From NCBI GenBank assembly GCA_026416455.1, contig JAOAFE010000004.1, positions 1 through 64,000 of the forward strand: 64,000 bases of DNA, in the 5' to 3' direction. Each line of letters opens with the position of its first letter. The stretch's first letter is position 1. The notes beneath the pieces are model-generated. The model was not told the DNA's origin and ran no database searches. It saw nothing but the letters and a program-made list of their open reading frames with translations. A program made the position numbers and the translations under genes. The stretch comes from Syntrophales bacterium. Lineage in GTDB: Bacteria > Desulfobacterota > Syntrophia > Syntrophales > UBA8958. This document shows positions 4,201-11,634 of this stretch, in pieces.

Positions 4201-4297
4201 GACATCTCTTTTCCTTACCTTACTGGTCGTACCAGCGGCTTATGACCTGTTCGACGAGTGGATAGGAAAGCTGAGAGGGAGAAATAATGGTCGGTGA
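1208..4297 (+). CDS. RND multidrug efflux permease (AcrB/MdtB family)
   Basis: 1029 aa; starts SIKRPVFATMIIMALVVLGVVSYPEIGVDLFPRVEFPIV; motifs DDAIIVIENIYRHIE and GLVKKNAILLVDYTN. Confidence 0.95.
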   Translation: MWLARTSIKRPVFATMIIMALVVLGVVSYPEIGVDLFPRVEFPIVNIITTLKGASPEIMDIDVTDRIEEAVNTINGVKSITSTSSEGVSSITVEFVLERDIDLAVQDVREKISLVRNKLPTDIAEPIIQKVDTDATPVMYLSLSGQRSVRELSTYADEVLKEQLQRINGVGALRLFGLRLRQVRIWLDADRMRAYNISATDVAQVLARENIELPGGRIEEAVKEYGVKVKGEIPSAQAFNELIVGWYRGAPVRIKDIGRAEDGMDEKRTISRFNGVPSVNIAIQKQSGTNTVEVIDRVKEELKRIRRQLPPGMQLNIAFDQSIFIKRSIREVQYHLILGGILAVLAILLFLKNMRVTLISAVALPVSVISTFTIMRAFGFTFNNMTMLGLTLSVGILIDDAIIVIENIYRHIEKGMEPREAANFATSEIGLAVMATTLAIVVIFLPVAFMKGIIGRFFMSFALTVVFAVLVSLLVSFTLTPMLASIYLRARHGQEKRIPIFSNLGDMFERGYYRLERFYRRLLDFTLEHRGKILISALVVFIFSLFMTRFMGKEFVPPEDQGRFLVRLEAPIDYSVEKVNELFSKAEAIVRSLPEVESVNYLQGLGPGGSGQVNRGVIMVNLIEKKKRKRSQEEIKADLRRKMREIPGLKGMAEDVAFISGLGRNVPIQFTLRGGDINLLTSYTKQFVSELSHIPGIVDIDTSLEAGKPELKVFIDREKAAALGVSVASITEAINLLVSGEVDITKFKDEGRGRRYDLRIRLFPDDRRDFSDLGKICVRAKDGTLVELANLITLQEGGAPSTIWRVDRQRAQIVYANLENKPLGQAKEEIDALAARILPPDISTLYKGHADTMQESFYYLIFALILGIVLAYMVLAAQFESFIHPFTILLSMPLSLIGAFGALMLTGKTINIFSMIGLILLMGLVKKNAILLVDYTNTLRGRGLPRREAIKEAGPVRLRPILMTTFAMVFGMVPVAFGVGEGAETRSPMGVAVIGGLLTSLFLTLLVVPAAYDLFDEWIGKLRGRNNGR

Positions 4298-5924
4298 AAG
4301 GCAAACGCGCAGACAGAAAGATATAGGTCGCCTTAAAAGGGAAAGGATGGAGCGGATCCAGCCAGCACGGGGGAGATTAATAAAACAGGATACGGTTGTT
4401 CAGAAGGCAAAGGGGGTTTTTAACCGCCGAGAAATCAAGGAGCTTAAATTACACGGCCTGAACAAAGAAGAGGCCTTTAGACAATACGCTTTACTCCAAG
4501 CGGGTACCTCTTTTGTCAAGCTTCATCGCCCAGCCCGCTTGGGTGATGGCATCCTTGTCATAGAAGAGAAAGATTATGCGCGCCTTGTCTCGTTGCATGA
4601 AGAGGCCATGGCTTGTGGGAGAATGCTCAAGTTCGTTCCGGCCTCGGGGGCGGCGACAAGAATGTTTCAGGATTGGTACGATTTACTGGGGAAAAGCAGA
4701 CAAGGTCTCATAACCCCCTCGGTGCTCGACCATCTTGAACGTTATCCCTTCTATCCTGAAATTAGAGAGGCTTCGCTACGACGGGGCATTAATCTAGACG
4801 ACCGAGAGGTGAGAGTAAAAAGGCTGACGGAGATATTGGAGACAATTTTGGGTCCGGGTGGTCTCAATTACGGGGATATGCCCAAAGCCCTCATTCCTTT
4901 CCATCGTTATTCAACGGGCGTCCGTACGGCTTTAGAGGAACATCTATTAGAAGCGGCGCATTACGTATGCGATAGTAATCATGTCGCTCGCCTGCATTTT
5001 ACCGTTCAGGCGGATCACGAAGGGCGGTTTAGAGAATTCCTTTCCTCGGTGATTACCAATTATGAAAAGACCTGCGGGGTAACTTTTGAAATTACCATTT
5101 CAAGCCAAAGTTCCGATACAGATGCGATTGCCCTAAACGAGCGGGGTGAGGTGCTAAAAGACGAAAACGGTAGAATAGTTTTCCGTCCGGGGGGGCACGG
5201 TGCCTTGCTTAAGAATCTGCAGGCTCTGGGCGGGGATATAGTTTTTGTAAAGAACATTGACAACGTGGTGCGAGAAGAGCATCTCTCCCCCGTGGTCTTC
5301 TGGCATAAGCTCATGGGTGGTTTTCTCCTGGAAACGGAAAAGAAAGTACACCACCTTTTAAAGGAGGTAAAGGAAGGGAGATTGGATGAAGCCCACGCCT
5401 TTGTAGAAGAGGTGTTAGACCTGAAAATATCGGAAAAAATAGCGCCTGTAAGTAGTGAGGAAAAAAAGGAAATCCTGTACGATCTGTTGCACCGCCCGAT
5501 CAGGGTTGCCGGTATGGTGAAAAACGAGGGCGAACCGGGCGGAGGACCATTTTGGGTAGAGATGCCGGAAGGTGACATAGCGCTCCAAATTGTCGAAGAG
5601 GTTCAGGTCAATACCCGTTCGGCGGAGCAGCAGAAAAAATGGCAAGAAGCCACCCATTTCAACCCCGTCGATATGGTCTTAAGCTTACGGGATGAGGAGG
5701 GAAAGAATTACGATTTATCGTACTTTGCCGATCCGCGGATGGCGATAGTGACGCGCAAAACGTTTCGGGGAAAACCCATCCGGGTCCTTGAACATCCAGG
5801 CCTGTGGAATGGGGGTATGGCCAGATGGCTCACCTTTTTCGTCGAGATCCCTTCCTTCACCTTCAATCCGGTAAAGACTTGTGCCGACCTTCTTCGGCCC
5901 GCCCATCAGCCTTCCGAAAAATAG
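4287..5924 (+). CDS. DUF4301 family protein
   Basis: 545 aa; FVPASGAATRMFQDWYDLL near the N-terminus and overall layout recalled for DUF4301. Confidence 0.7.
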   Translation: MVGERQTRRQKDIGRLKRERMERIQPARGRLIKQDTVVQKAKGVFNRREIKELKLHGLNKEEAFRQYALLQAGTSFVKLHRPARLGDGILVIEEKDYARLVSLHEEAMACGRMLKFVPASGAATRMFQDWYDLLGKSRQGLITPSVLDHLERYPFYPEIREASLRRGINLDDREVRVKRLTEILETILGPGGLNYGDMPKALIPFHRYSTGVRTALEEHLLEAAHYVCDSNHVARLHFTVQADHEGRFREFLSSVITNYEKTCGVTFEITISSQSSDTDAIALNERGEVLKDENGRIVFRPGGHGALLKNLQALGGDIVFVKNIDNVVREEHLSPVVFWHKLMGGFLLETEKKVHHLLKEVKEGRLDEAHAFVEEVLDLKISEKIAPVSSEEKKEILYDLLHRPIRVAGMVKNEGEPGGGPFWVEMPEGDIALQIVEEVQVNTRSAEQQKKWQEATHFNPVDMVLSLRDEEGKNYDLSYFADPRMAIVTRKTFRGKPIRVLEHPGLWNGGMARWLTFFVEIPSFTFNPVKTCADLLRPAHQPSEK

Positions 5925-7074
5925 CGATCATCAACTTTGTTACGAGTCGGCTTATTTCCATGATGCGTGATAGGTAGATTTTCCAACGGGGAAGTGAGGC
6001 TTTTCTCATCCTCTGCTGCCCAATTTTTAGGGGAGGAAAAATCGTACGGAAAACGAAGTGGAACTTTCCTTTCATGCCCGGTACCAATGATAAGTAAAGG
6101 GGATAACTTAAGCCTCTCATCCTGATGCCCCTCTTGATTAACTTGAGGTACAAATACTGCAAATGGTGCAGAGGGATGGGTTTAAACTGTTCTTGAATGG
6201 ACAAGGGTACGACCGCTGGGTCCCAGTAACTTAGGTGCACCAATCCGAAATAGACGAAGGGGAAGAGACCAGATAACAAGGCCATTTTTCTTACATAGCT
6301 CCAATCGATTGTCCCCTTCTTTAAGACGAGGGAAAGGTCGTAAAGGAGGATGAGGCGATCGAAGGCATGATTCACCCTCAAGCCATGTTCCGTTAAGTGC
6401 AAAATCATGTGCTCCCCAGAAGGTATGCGGCTTTCAACCCCTTCAATGAGGACGATTTCCGACTGTTGCCAGAGGTCGGCTACAGGGTACTGGATGGACG
6501 GGGGAAAGGGAACGGATGTATTGATCGGATACCAGTGGAGATGAATGATGGGACGCTCATCCGGTGTATGGTATTCCAAGCTCGAGAGATAGCCAGGAGG
6601 ATTGGTCAGGGCTTTTTTTAAGGTGGTATCGACGGGCGAATAGTGTATCGATGATAGATAGTCATGGGCGGCATCGACATCCTCTCTCTTGACGAGAACA
6701 TCCACATCCGTCAGGCGGCGTGTAGCCGGGTGCGGGTAATAGAAGAGAGATAAAGCCAGGCCTTTTAAGATTACGTGTTCGATTCCTCGGTCATTAAAGC
6801 CTTGCAGGACCGACGCTGTATCGAGAGTGAGTCGAAAATTCCTTCCCAGATTGAGAAGAAAAAAATCTTCCAATGTGCCTAAGGTTTGGGTAGAAAATTT
6901 CGCCGCATAACCTTTTTTCTTTAAAAGGTAGTAGGCAAGGGGCGCAAGATCCTCGGCCAATATACGTTCGACGAGATAGGTTTCCGGCACCGGGAGGTCA
7001 TTCCACTTGTCCCACTCCTCAGAGAAGAGAAACCATTGAAGCCAGTGATCTAGAGCCGGGAGATTTTTTTTCAT
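5863..7074 (-). CDS. Nucleotidyltransferase family protein (PF14907-like)
   Basis: ILKGLALSLFYYPHPATRRLTDVDVLVKREDVDAA motif; likely ATG at 7074 overlaps the upstream radical SAM stop (ATGA overlap). Confidence 0.75.
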   Translation of the reverse strand: MKKNLPALDHWLQWFLFSEEWDKWNDLPVPETYLVERILAEDLAPLAYYLLKKKGYAAKFSTQTLGTLEDFFLLNLGRNFRLTLDTASVLQGFNDRGIEHVILKGLALSLFYYPHPATRRLTDVDVLVKREDVDAAHDYLSSIHYSPVDTTLKKALTNPPGYLSSLEYHTPDERPIIHLHWYPINTSVPFPPSIQYPVADLWQQSEIVLIEGVESRIPSGEHMILHLTEHGLRVNHAFDRLILLYDLSLVLKKGTIDWSYVRKMALLSGLFPFVYFGLVHLSYWDPAVVPLSIQEQFKPIPLHHLQYLYLKLIKRGIRMRGLSYPLYLSLVPGMKGKFHFVFRTIFPPLKIGQQRMRKASLPRWKIYLSRIMEISRLVTKLMIAIFRKADGRAEEGRHKSLPD

Positions 7075-8168
7075 TTCCCGCCAGAGAGGGACGTCAATCG
7101 AGAAGTTGGAAAGAGGCCTTGAGCCTCTGCCTCTTCGCAGAACCAGAAGGGGGACCACACATCGCGTCTTCGATAGAAATTCTGTGCGAGACAACTACCA
7201 AGACAGATGCCTTTTAAAATACAGCGACGGCAAGTTCCCTTGAGCCGGCCAGGTAAACCTCTCCTGATCTCTTTTAGGATTTTGCTTTCCGACCATATTT
7301 CTTTCACGGAATGGTCTTGGGCCCGGCCGAAGACCATCTCTTTTACAATTTCCCCTATGCCACATAGAGCGTAAGAGCCATCGGCGAGGAGTCCCAAGAT
7401 GCCCAAGATGCCACAGGTCGCACAGGCGTCACCTTTTTGGCTGAAAATTTGGCTCAAGGGACGAAAAGCAAGTGGTAGATGAACCGAGACGGGGAGGGCG
7501 GGGGAGGTAAGCTCTTCATCGACCATACGACTTATGGTGAGAATTTCCTCTACCGGGACAGCGCCACCGCGGGAAAAAATTTTTTTCCCCCTTGCGACCG
7601 GTTGCAAACAGTTGATTTTAACGGAGCAGGCCCCTACCTCCTGTGCCAGCTTCACTATTGCTGTCACTTCTTCTTTGTTCGACTCCATCAGGGTAAAGAT
7701 AATCTGCGGTCGAAGATTCGAGCTCACTAACCTCTCGATACCACTGATCGTGTGTTTAAAAGCACCTTTCACGTTTCTTATGTGGTCATTGGTTTCCGGT
7801 GTGGCGCCGTCCAGACTTACGGAAACATGCAGAACTGAATGCTCGCAAAGAGCGGCGACCACGTTTTCGCCGATCAGGGTGCCGTTTGTTTCCAAAGTCA
7901 GCTCGAGATTTAGTCTCCTTATCGTTGACAGTATTTTTATTAGCTCCGGGTGTAAAAGGGGCTCACCACCTGTCAATTTAACTCCCTTGAGCCCCAGTGG
8001 GAGTGCCTCCTCAAGAATGTGCGAAAACAGCTCCGCATTCAAATAATTAACGCCTTTCTCCTGAGCAATATAATGCGGCTTAATCCAACAGTGACGGCAC
8101 CGTAAATTGCATCCATCGGTGATGTAGCTGTAGAGATAATGAAGGGGGGGTATTTCTTTCTCATCCAT
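7071..8168 (-). CDS. Radical SAM/SPASM protein (ScmF-like)
   Basis: CNLRCRHC radical SAM motif, KLTGGEPLLHP, C-terminal SPASM cysteines CRRCILKGICLGSC; EIPPLHYLYSYITDGCNL N-terminus recalled for ScmF. Confidence 0.85.
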   Translation of the reverse strand: MDEKEIPPLHYLYSYITDGCNLRCRHCWIKPHYIAQEKGVNYLNAELFSHILEEALPLGLKGVKLTGGEPLLHPELIKILSTIRRLNLELTLETNGTLIGENVVAALCEHSVLHVSVSLDGATPETNDHIRNVKGAFKHTISGIERLVSSNLRPQIIFTLMESNKEEVTAIVKLAQEVGACSVKINCLQPVARGKKIFSRGGAVPVEEILTISRMVDEELTSPALPVSVHLPLAFRPLSQIFSQKGDACATCGILGILGLLADGSYALCGIGEIVKEMVFGRAQDHSVKEIWSESKILKEIRRGLPGRLKGTCRRCILKGICLGSCLAQNFYRRRDVWSPFWFCEEAEAQGLFPTSRLTSLSGGK

Positions 8169-9282
8169 GTAACCGATTCCACCTTTCGGGAAGATGCCCC
8201 CCTTTTTTTAAAAAGAGGAAGAGGCAGCCTTCGGGACTGGGATGGTTAATCTCTCCAAAGTGGGTATAGGCCGTGGCTGGGCAATTTCCCGTACAGGAGG
8301 AAAGATAGGGGCAGTCCCGGCAAAAGGAAAAGGTGGCGAGGGGTATGTGCTGGCGGTTTCGCAGGAGAGAAAGGGTGGGGTGGTTCCGCCAAATCGTAAG
8401 GAGAGGATCTCGATTGATGCGACCGAGAGGCAGATGGCTTAACTGTTGACAGGGGATGAGCATTCCGTCGGCACGCACGGCCAGTGTTTCAAATGGGCCA
8501 CGGCAGCCGCTTAAATATCCACCTCCGGCCGGGGGCGTAATCCGACCCCATCGGGCCTCTTCCATCGCACGCCAGGTATAACCATCGGCGAGAGGTCCTG
8601 CCGTCGCATTAACCTGTCCTGGAAAAAGATCTGAGATTTCAAGCATGATCTCCATCGCCGCCGCATACTCAGGTGGGGTAAGCTGCGTAATGGAGGCGTG
8701 GCGCCGGCATAAGCCCATATGGGAGGCCGAGTTGGTAGAGAAGGATGGGAGCCTCAATTCTTCCAGGATAAAGCGGGCGATGGATTTTAATTGGAGATAG
8801 TTTTTTCGATGAATTGTCACCCGAACGACGGGTGTTAATCCAACCTCCTGTAAGGCCTGAATTCCTTTCACGGCTTTATCAAAACTGCCCTTGCCTCGGA
8901 AGGAGTCGTGAGTTTCTGCGTCCGCCCCATCGAGGGAAATTTGAATGTAATCCAATCTACCGCTTTTCTGGAGGAACTGGGCTATTTTGTTGTCAATGAG
9001 GGTGCCGTTCGACAGGATGGCAAATCGGATGGGATGGCGTTTTAGATCGATGAGGAGATCGAGAAAATCGTGCCGTGCGAAGGGCTCTCCTCCCGAGAAA
9101 ACGACCCGCATTATACCCGCCCGGCCCAGCTCTTCAAAGAATTGCCGCCACTCGAAAAAAGGTATATCTTCTTCCACATCAGCGGCCGAGGTAAAGTGAC
9201 TACAGTAGGTACACCTTAAATTACACCGACTGGTGATTTCGATATCTATATAGCGTGGAGACCGCATGACAGCGGCCGTCAT
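8161..9282 (-). CDS. Radical SAM/SPASM protein (ScmE-like)
   Basis: RSPRYIDIEITSRCNLRCTYC, FSGGEPF, SPASM cysteines CRDCPYLSSCTGNC. Confidence 0.85.
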   Translation of the reverse strand: MTAAVMRSPRYIDIEITSRCNLRCTYCSHFTSAADVEEDIPFFEWRQFFEELGRAGIMRVVFSGGEPFARHDFLDLLIDLKRHPIRFAILSNGTLIDNKIAQFLQKSGRLDYIQISLDGADAETHDSFRGKGSFDKAVKGIQALQEVGLTPVVRVTIHRKNYLQLKSIARFILEELRLPSFSTNSASHMGLCRRHASITQLTPPEYAAAMEIMLEISDLFPGQVNATAGPLADGYTWRAMEEARWGRITPPAGGGYLSGCRGPFETLAVRADGMLIPCQQLSHLPLGRINRDPLLTIWRNHPTLSLLRNRQHIPLATFSFCRDCPYLSSCTGNCPATAYTHFGEINHPSPEGCLFLFLKKGGHLPERWNRLHG

Positions 9283-9560
9283 GGCTTTTCTCTTTCTACG
9301 TTTTCTACCAAGTTAAGAGTTTGAAGGGCCGTGAGAAAAGAACTTATCTGTTCCTTCGCTTCGGGCGGCAAGGACTCAACTTCTTTTGCTACAATACGAA
9401 TGATATCCTCTTCACTGTTAGTCCCGGTTAAGTGTTTCCACACGATCACGGCTACCGGATTCAAGGCGTAGGTGTGCCCCGTATCGGGATCGAAAAGGAC
9501 TGCCCAATCGTCGAATTCTTCCCGCAGGACTAAGTTGGCGTTCGCCTTTAAATATATCAA
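9279..9560 (-). CDS. PqqD family protein (ScmD-like; RiPP recognition element fold)
   Basis: 93 aa; LVLREEFDDWAVLFDPDTGHTYALNPVAVIVWKHLTG pattern of PqqD-like proteins; 4-nt overlap with radical SAM gene. Confidence 0.8.
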   Translation of the reverse strand: MIYLKANANLVLREEFDDWAVLFDPDTGHTYALNPVAVIVWKHLTGTNSEEDIIRIVAKEVESLPPEAKEQISSFLTALQTLNLVENVEREKP

Positions 9561-9592
9561 CTAATCACTCCCTTTTCCTCAAATTGGCCAAT

Positions 9593-9994
9593 CTATGGTT
9601 TACTTCCCACAACTTCTACGTAAACGCGCCTCGTGCGGGGGCCATCGAACTCGCAGAAGAAAATAGATTGCCATTGACCTAGCATAAGTTCACCACCAGA
9701 GACAATGACCAACTCCGATGAGCCGACCAGGGAAGCCTTAACATGGGCATCGGAATTACCTTCACAATGAAGGAAAGGGGCATTTTTCGGGATGAGACGG
9801 TTTAGCTGGTTCAATATATCTCTCGGCACGTCTGGGTCGGCATTTTCGTTGATCGTGACGGCGGCGGTCGTATGGGGAACGAAGATACAAACTAATCCGG
9901 TGGAGATCTTCTGCTTTGAAACTATATCTCTCACCTTTTTGGTTATGTCTATCATTTCGCATCTTTCGCGTGTGGTTACCGTAAAACTATCCAT
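9593..9994 (-). CDS. YjbQ/UPF0047 family protein (secondary thiamine-phosphate synthase-like)
   Basis: FVPHTTAAVTINENADPDVPRDI, HCEGNSDAHVKASLVGSSE, GQWQSIFFCEFDGPRTRRV; start could also be 10018. Confidence 0.9.
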   Translation of the reverse strand: MDSFTVTTRERCEMIDITKKVRDIVSKQKISTGLVCIFVPHTTAAVTINENADPDVPRDILNQLNRLIPKNAPFLHCEGNSDAHVKASLVGSSELVIVSGGELMLGQWQSIFFCEFDGPRTRRVYVEVVGSKP

Positions 9995-9995
9995 C

Positions 9996-10655
9996 TTACT
10001 TATCTCCTTTTCCCGCATATGACGGCGTTAACTTTTTCAATACGCCGAGGGTTTTTGTCATGGGCTCAACCAAAAATTCTCCCGTTGCCGCCGCCCTTTT
10101 ATACACCTCATAAGGGGCTTGTCCCCCTTGAGACGGATCGAGAAAGATATCGTGAAAAAGAAGATAACCTCCTTGCACGATATGGGGACTCCAGAGACGA
10201 TAATCCTGCCAGGCCGATTCGAAGGTGTGGCTGCCATCGATAAAGACAAGGCTTAAGGGTGTATGCCAGAGACGTGCCACCGTGGCGGAAGATGACACGA
10301 TGGGTACGACGGTATCGAGGAGATCGAACATCTCCAAAGTATGCCGGAAGTGAGGAAAAGTATCTATTTTTCCCGTTTTGTCGTCCAGCAGCTCTGGATC
10401 GAAGTACGCCTCCCCCGGTTGCTGCTCTTCCGATCCGCGATGATGGTCGATAGAAAAAAGGATGCCTTTGTTTTTACGACAGCCGAATCCCAGGTATAGG
10501 GCCGATTTCCCGCAATAGCTTCCTATTTCTAAACACGGCCCCAGACGACTGGCCGCCTGCGCCAGGCGGTACAAACATTTACCTTCTTCGGGATCAAGAA
10601 ACCCTTTGACGGGTGCCTTCTGGATTTGACTGAATAAATCTTCTTCTCCTCTCAT
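9996..10655 (-). CDS. Class I SAM-dependent methyltransferase-like protein
   Basis: CLEIGSYCGKSALYLG and LVFIDGSHTFESAWQDYRLW motifs; start chosen as MRGEEDLF just after upstream stop (ORF can extend to 10700). Confidence 0.7.
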   Translation of the reverse strand: MRGEEDLFSQIQKAPVKGFLDPEEGKCLYRLAQAASRLGPCLEIGSYCGKSALYLGFGCRKNKGILFSIDHHRGSEEQQPGEAYFDPELLDDKTGKIDTFPHFRHTLEMFDLLDTVVPIVSSSATVARLWHTPLSLVFIDGSHTFESAWQDYRLWSPHIVQGGYLLFHDIFLDPSQGGQAPYEVYKRAAATGEFLVEPMTKTLGVLKKLTPSYAGKGDK

Positions 10656-10659
10656 GGCC

Positions 10660-11634
10660 TTAGATTTTAGCCTCTTTTTTAAATAAGGAAAAGAGGTCAT
10701 CCAACAGCATGAGTAGCCTCTCCATCAAAGAAACACGATCCAAAAGGGAAGCGTAATTTGCCTCTTTTTCCTCCTCGTCGTCTTTCATATTCGATAGTCG
10801 TAAACCCTGGAGTACGAAATCATCCGCCTTCAAAGTAAATTCCCATTCATCTCGGTCTTCCTGAAGGTTCAATCGTGCCTCTTTGATTTTTTTTCCCTGA
10901 CGCAGGGCCTCTTCAACCTCGTAGAAGCCGGCATGGTGGCCCTGACAGACAACCGATTCAACATATTCTCCCTCTCCCGATTCCAGCATGACTCGTTTAA
11001 GAAACTCGAGCCGTACTTCTCTTCCCCGAGAGACGGCAATAGTACCCTCTCTTTCCTTTGCCTTAGCCCAAAGCCAGGTAAGGAACTGGCGATTTTCGAT
11101 TGGATCTTGAGCAGGGCAAAAGGGGTTAAGAGGCATTTCGAACGTATCTTCGAAGTACGAAACGAAGTCGTCTCTCACCTTTGGGCTGGTTCCGGAAAAG
11201 TAAACGGTCCCCGTCTGCCAAGACCAGCAGACCTCATAAAAAGAGGGAACGGGTGGAATTTTCAGGGCGAGTTCTCTCTTTGCCCCCTCTCGGATAGATT
11301 GTTTTTGTTCTCGGCTTATTTTTTTTAACCCCTGCTCCGAGAGAAATTTTTTTTCCTCCTCGAGGCAGCGGAGATTGAGTAAGGACGAGGGAATACGCCG
11401 TTCATCAACCCGAAGGGTAAAGATTAAGTAAGACCCGAACTTGTATTGAGGCAGCGTAAAATTGCTACTTAACGGATCGTCGATCAGTGTCCAACCCCAT
11501 CTTTCTTTGGCTTCTAAGGGAAAAAAGTCACTAAATGCACGGGATTTTAATTTTTCCCCTACAGAGTCTAAGTCTAACTGTTCTTGGGGCGTACGAAAAC
11601 GCGCTAGGGATACCAATCCTTTTTTGAAACCCAT
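10660..11634 (-). CDS. Putative RdgC-like (recombination-associated) protein
   Basis: N-terminal WGWTLIDD and central AKRELALKIPPVPSFYEVCWSWQTGTVYFSGTSPKVRDDFVSYFEDTF resemble RdgC family architecture. Confidence 0.5.
   Translation of the reverse strand: MGFKKGLVSLARFRTPQEQLDLDSVGEKLKSRAFSDFFPLEAKERWGWTLIDDPLSSNFTLPQYKFGSYLIFTLRVDERRIPSSLLNLRCLEEEKKFLSEQGLKKISREQKQSIREGAKRELALKIPPVPSFYEVCWSWQTGTVYFSGTSPKVRDDFVSYFEDTFEMPLNPFCPAQDPIENRQFLTWLWAKAKEREGTIAVSRGREVRLEFLKRVMLESGEGEYVESVVCQGHHAGFYEVEEALRQGKKIKEARLNLQEDRDEWEFTLKADDFVLQGLRLSNMKDDEEEKEANYASLLDRVSLMERLLMLLDDLFSLFKKEAKI

Follow-up and report, generated by a model that had tools for sequence, protein, structure and literature searches.

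The four-gene cassette

The window, the whole stretch of 64,000 nucleotides that we analysed (C39:1-64000), belongs to a draft genome of 2.1 Mb that is an estimated 95.8% complete. It carries four open genes on the minus strand, scmD, scmE, scmF and a nucleotidyltransferase gene, which overlap successively by 4, 8 and 4 nt. The first, scmD (9279..9560), encodes a PqqD-like RiPP recognition element (RRE) of 93 aa and begins with TTG, with AGGGAG upstream. It is followed by scmE (8161..9282; 373 aa) and scmF (7071..8168; 365 aa), both encoding radical SAM/SPASM proteins, and by the gene for an NTP_transf_5 protein (5863..7074; 403 aa). The start of this last gene is the ATG of its ATGA overlap with scmF (7074), not the TTG of the longest open reading frame (7194). 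The gap between yjbQ and scmD (9561..9592, minus strand) spans 32 nt, too short for a precursor gene. The first-pass annotation had described a PqqD-like protein, two SPASM radical SAM proteins and a nucleotidyltransferase, encoded with overlaps of 4-8 nt and preceded by a 32-nt gap; the reading frames, overlaps, gap and domain matches verify this description throughout.

At its far end, the nucleotidyltransferase gene overlaps tail-to-tail, by 62 nt (5863-5924), with a DUF4301 gene on the plus strand (4287-5924). Upstream of scmD, on the same strand (9593-11634), lie overlapping reading frames for YjbQ-family, Methyltransf_24 and RdgC-like proteins. An empty-site comparison was informative in part: the genomes G311 and G396 retain DUF4301 and the efflux genes with no cassette adjoining them, but the yjbQ side is not kept. 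A signal-peptidase-like gene and an ABC transporter, typical of ScmC-type loci, are absent locally at the window cassette.

The search with family models that the earlier assignment to a SynChlorMet (Scm) cassette called for upholds it in the two radical SAM proteins. With 486 bits for ScmE (TIGR04250) and 454 bits for ScmF (TIGR04251), both lie above the NCBIfam cut-off of 400, and on these sequence grounds the two are members of their families. ScmD, at 89.8 bits against TIGR04248, falls just under the cut-off of 100, although this is its best NCBIfam family all the same; it matches PF05402 (PqqD) with 50.1 bits (cut-off 23.4), and its residues 10-88 match TbiB1, a lasso RRE of known structure (5v1u; E 0.0018, phmmer). 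PDB matches of ScmD to the designed 'Cake' and 'Scone' proteins were set aside as short repeat matches (residues 18-50). Both ScmE and ScmF combine Radical_SAM and SPASM domains, with CxxxCxxC at 20/24/27 in each and SPASM cysteines at 260, 278, 321, 324, 330, 334 and 353 in ScmE and at 249-344 in ScmF; in an 18-sequence alignment, the CxxxCxxC and SPASM cysteines of ScmE are invariant. The remaining full-length SPASM-type proteins found in the genome look like enzymes of the haem pathway, and a shorter match like a tungsten-cofactor maturase, which leaves ScmE and ScmF as the most promising enzymes for the precursor ScmA.

The nucleotidyltransferase matches PF14907 (NTP_transf_5) with 120 bits. 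Its metal site reads DVD, with D123 and D125 invariant, and its AlphaFold model (pLDDT 87) matches the nucleotidyltransferase folds of MenT1, ANT(2'')-Ia and FKRP. This protein is likely to be a tailoring enzyme.

A precursor encoded on another contig

In genome mining, precursors are usually sought beside the maturases. When a ScmA profile built without the candidate described below was run against every open reading frame of at least 20 aa in the window, there were no matches, in agreement with the first-pass annotation, which had seen no precursor nearby; on the strength of the same search, we reject a precursor concealed within the cassette genes or overlapping with them. NCBIfam models the ScmA precursor as TIGR04252, with a cut-off of 35 bits, and the only match to this model in the genome, below the cut-off at 12.5 bits, drew attention to a gene on another contig (C7:27644-27982; 112 aa) that is provided with a ribosome-binding site. 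The held-out profile assigns this protein 93.4 bits (E 4e-26), and it can be aligned with 13 precursors of relatives. A whole-genome search, used for copy number only, found scmA in a single copy; its E-value of 1.5e-32 for C7 ScmA is inflated because the query had included that protein.

By the RiPP criterion of an encoded precursor with leader and core, C7 ScmA is such a precursor: its leader, YEPPRIIDL, fits the YxxPx[LI] motif, and the whole runs from MDTGEKKKITYEPPRIIDLVTGTAYAQ through a short spacer to a core of seven C-x-x-G repeats at a spacing of 10-11 residues. The earlier suggestion that the substrate might be encoded elsewhere is thereby substantiated, the sole copy lying on C7, whereas the accompanying suggestion that it might not be a classical RiPP precursor is not supported, the peptide being a leader-plus-core one of the type modelled as ScmA. 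Even if C7 and C39 abut, the distance between scmA and the cassette is at least about 15 kb. On C7, 17 nt separate scmA from an acyl-CoA synthetase-type gene (L130:9644-10677) that precedes it on the same strand, so that the two may be co-transcribed.

The third site and the relatives of the system

A third contig, C44, encodes an HprK-like kinase together with a second PqqD protein (PqqD2), in an exosortase-associated locus where their neighbours are an HD protein, an EpsI-like protein, an XrtA-associated ATPase and PpsR. The kinase is far from named models in sequence, and its predicted structure matches PEPCK/HprK folds. ScmC itself (TIGR04249, cut-off 125 bits) has no match anywhere in the genome, and the model does detect true ScmC elsewhere (175 bits). 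TIGR04247, which had been guessed to be an Scm model, proved irrelevant, being the copper-related NosD family. PqqD2 (L172:10398-10769, contig C44) and its aligned relatives begin with a twin-arginine-like hydrophobic segment (SRRSLL...), for which the TAT_signal model gives 20.5 bits in PqqD2, below its cut-off of 22.7. An RRE domain that is exported or membrane-anchored would be unusual.

For comparison, we collected ScmE from 22 places in a same-phylum sample and from 79 loci in a scan of about 85,000 genomes. At most of the gathered loci, a small peptide with a YxxPx[LI] leader and a core of C-x-x-G repeats is found near ScmE. Such a ScmA-like peptide lies within 6 kb of ScmE in 39 of 45 distinct well-flanked loci; the lack of a local precursor is therefore unusual for the Scm system rather than its rule, and the window and the sister genome G157 both belong to the remaining six. 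Homologues of ScmE also occur in archaea (Methanofollis, Methanotrichaceae) and in Bacillota (L085, L092, L089).

The presence of ScmA follows that of ScmE across genomes. Among 60 relatives, ScmA occurs in 15 of 17 that have ScmE and in 4 of 43 that do not (Fisher p 8e-9, a value that ignores shared ancestry); in the phylum sample, the respective fractions are 10/21 and 6/374 (Fisher p 1e-10, again ignoring shared ancestry). Three of the six seemingly ScmA-only genomes of the phylum sample have ScmE-like, ScmF, HprK and nucleotidyltransferase genes beside ScmA, the ScmE-like proteins having just missed the E-value cut.

This association bears on the possibility that the cassette serves some other, unrecognised substrate, from a small-molecule pathway or a different peptide, with the C7 ScmA an unused relic. 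The position of scmA in trans, directly behind an acyl-CoA synthetase-type gene and not behind an Scm gene, could be read that way, as could a long ScmE branch (see below), but scmA is intact, single-copy and equipped with a ribosome-binding site, and it tracks ScmE across genomes. Moreover, an intact ScmA is retained by G157, in trans and next to PqqD2 and the nucleotidyltransferase, and searches of G206 for ScmE, ScmA, PqqD2 and a true kinase match found all of them absent, so that these parts are missing together. We consider an unused relic very unlikely.

The relatives also show how the parts belong together. Those of the exosortase-linked type likewise have genes for an HprK-like kinase and an HD-domain protein, as well as for a second PqqD protein whose start is twin-arginine-like. 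In G311 all parts form one cluster, and the HD protein, EpsI-like protein, XrtA-associated ATPase and PpsR lie within or flank a single intact cluster in both G311 and L050. G157 is split as well and otherwise arranged, with scmD-scmE-scmF on one contig (C55), PqqD2, ScmA and the nucleotidyltransferase on another (C34) and the kinase on a third (C57). The most probable history is the break-up of a single ancestral cluster.

Given that the assembly is a 44-contig draft, the split might in principle be an artefact of metagenome binning, with C7 or C44 derived from another organism. Against this, the estimated contamination is 0.42%, each contig supplies exactly the complementary parts that are missing, and tetranucleotide correlations among C39, C7 and C44 reach r 0.93-0.96, compared with 0.36, 0.72, 0.60 and 0.85 between C39:1-20k and stretches of G157, G206, G311 and G396, respectively. 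A binning artefact is accordingly the most improbable of the explanations weighed here.

In the ScmE tree, the window sequence groups with that of G157 (SH-aLRT 86) within a clade of 17 rows (SH-aLRT 97) that consists mostly of HprK-linked loci. Its end branch is long (0.89 against a median of 0.2), which suggests fast evolution or relaxed selection after dispersal; given this length, the specificity may have drifted. Taken together with the sub-cut-off ScmD and the scattering of the parts over three contigs, the branch could indicate a system in decay, in which selection was relaxed after dispersal and the product is no longer made. Decay of this kind appears unlikely, however, for a system in which every reading frame is open and the translational overlaps are preserved, the catalytic cysteines, the Walker A motif and the DxD site are intact, and the cysteine repeats of the precursor keep their regular spacing of 10-11 residues.

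We conclude that, with high probability, the genes of an Scm-type RiPP-like system are distributed over three sites in this genome and the window cassette forms its enzyme block. Its substrate would be encoded in trans by scmA on C7, as homology, single-copy status and co-occurrence indicate.

A proposed pathway and its place among known systems

Under the model that we propose, ScmD would bind the ScmA leader at its YEPPRI part and present the core to ScmE and ScmF. By SAM radical chemistry, these two would cross-link the cysteine of each repeat, most likely through a thioether to a residue within that same C-x-x-G-S-x-A repeat. Ser/Thr residues of the repeats would be phosphorylated by the HprK-like kinase, and the nucleotidyltransferase would attach a nucleotidyl or glycosyl group to the phosphate, as happens in the lasso peptides paeninodin and pseudomycoidin; the product would then be exported. 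For the Scm system, we infer all of these steps, leader binding, radical cross-linking, phosphorylation and nucleotidyl or glycosyl transfer, from precedents elsewhere. In lasso systems and others, motifs of the YxxP type serve as recognition sites for PqqD-like RREs (PMC12710340; PMC10368454). Lasso peptides also offer a case in which Ser is phosphorylated by a homologue of HPr kinase and the phosphate then receives a hexose from a nucleotidyltransferase (PMC8498205).

The closest named system is the SynChlorMet cassette (NCBIfam TIGR04248-TIGR04252), with which the genome shares the order ScmD-ScmE-ScmF, radical SAM proteins above both cut-offs and a ScmA-like Cys-repeat precursor. In contrast to SynChlorMet, ScmA here is on another contig and under the model cut-off, and a different kinase of the HprK fold, likewise in trans, stands in for the canonical ScmC. 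Because ScmD and ScmA score below their cut-offs, ScmC is lacking and the genes are not locally linked, we do not file the locus as a canonical SynChlorMet cassette. The exosortase-linked Scm loci of related genomes of the Syntrophales type (G311, L050, L053) comprise the same set of ScmD, ScmE, ScmF, PqqD2, ScmA, HprK-like kinase, HD protein, nucleotidyltransferase, XrtA-associated ATPase and PpsR, in one cluster there and spread over C39, C7 and C44 here. We class the system described here as a variant of the Scm RiPP-like system that is dispersed and exosortase-linked.

Lasso peptides that come with a kinase and a nucleotidyltransferase (paeninodin, pseudomycoidin and the Bradymonas bsf cluster) have in common with this system a PqqD-type RRE, a YxxPx[LI] leader, an HPr-kinase homologue and a nucleotidyltransferase. 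Radical SAM enzymes, however, take the place of the B2 leader protease and the C macrolactam synthetase, neither of which is found among the four cassette proteins, and the Cys-repeat core of ScmA implies that the product is not a lasso peptide. With sactipeptides and ranthipeptides, the system shares SPASM radical SAM maturases and Cys-rich cores; it differs in having two maturases for an array of C-x-x-G repeats spaced by 10-11 residues, and a thioether is suggested here by the Cys repeats and SPASM maturases only.

More speculatively, and with considerable doubt, the Scm product of this clade could be a cross-linked, phospho-decorated repeat peptide that serves an exosortase/exopolysaccharide surface system instead of acting as a secreted antibiotic; a PqqD domain, either exported by the Tat route or anchored in the membrane, would handle the modified peptide outside the cytosol.

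Searches of a literature library for SynChlorMet and for the TIGR accessions turned up no publication about an Scm protein, and the chemistry of the system appears to be unstudied. A maturase cassette that seemed to lack a substrate has a clear, single-copy one at a distant site, and comparison with relatives allows the split to be reconstructed. The Scm system, which is widespread in bacteria and archaea, is now linked to HprK-type kinases, nucleotidyltransferases and exosortase-associated loci, and ScmD, ScmE and ScmF together with the C7 ScmA represent a testable pair of enzymes and substrate for it.
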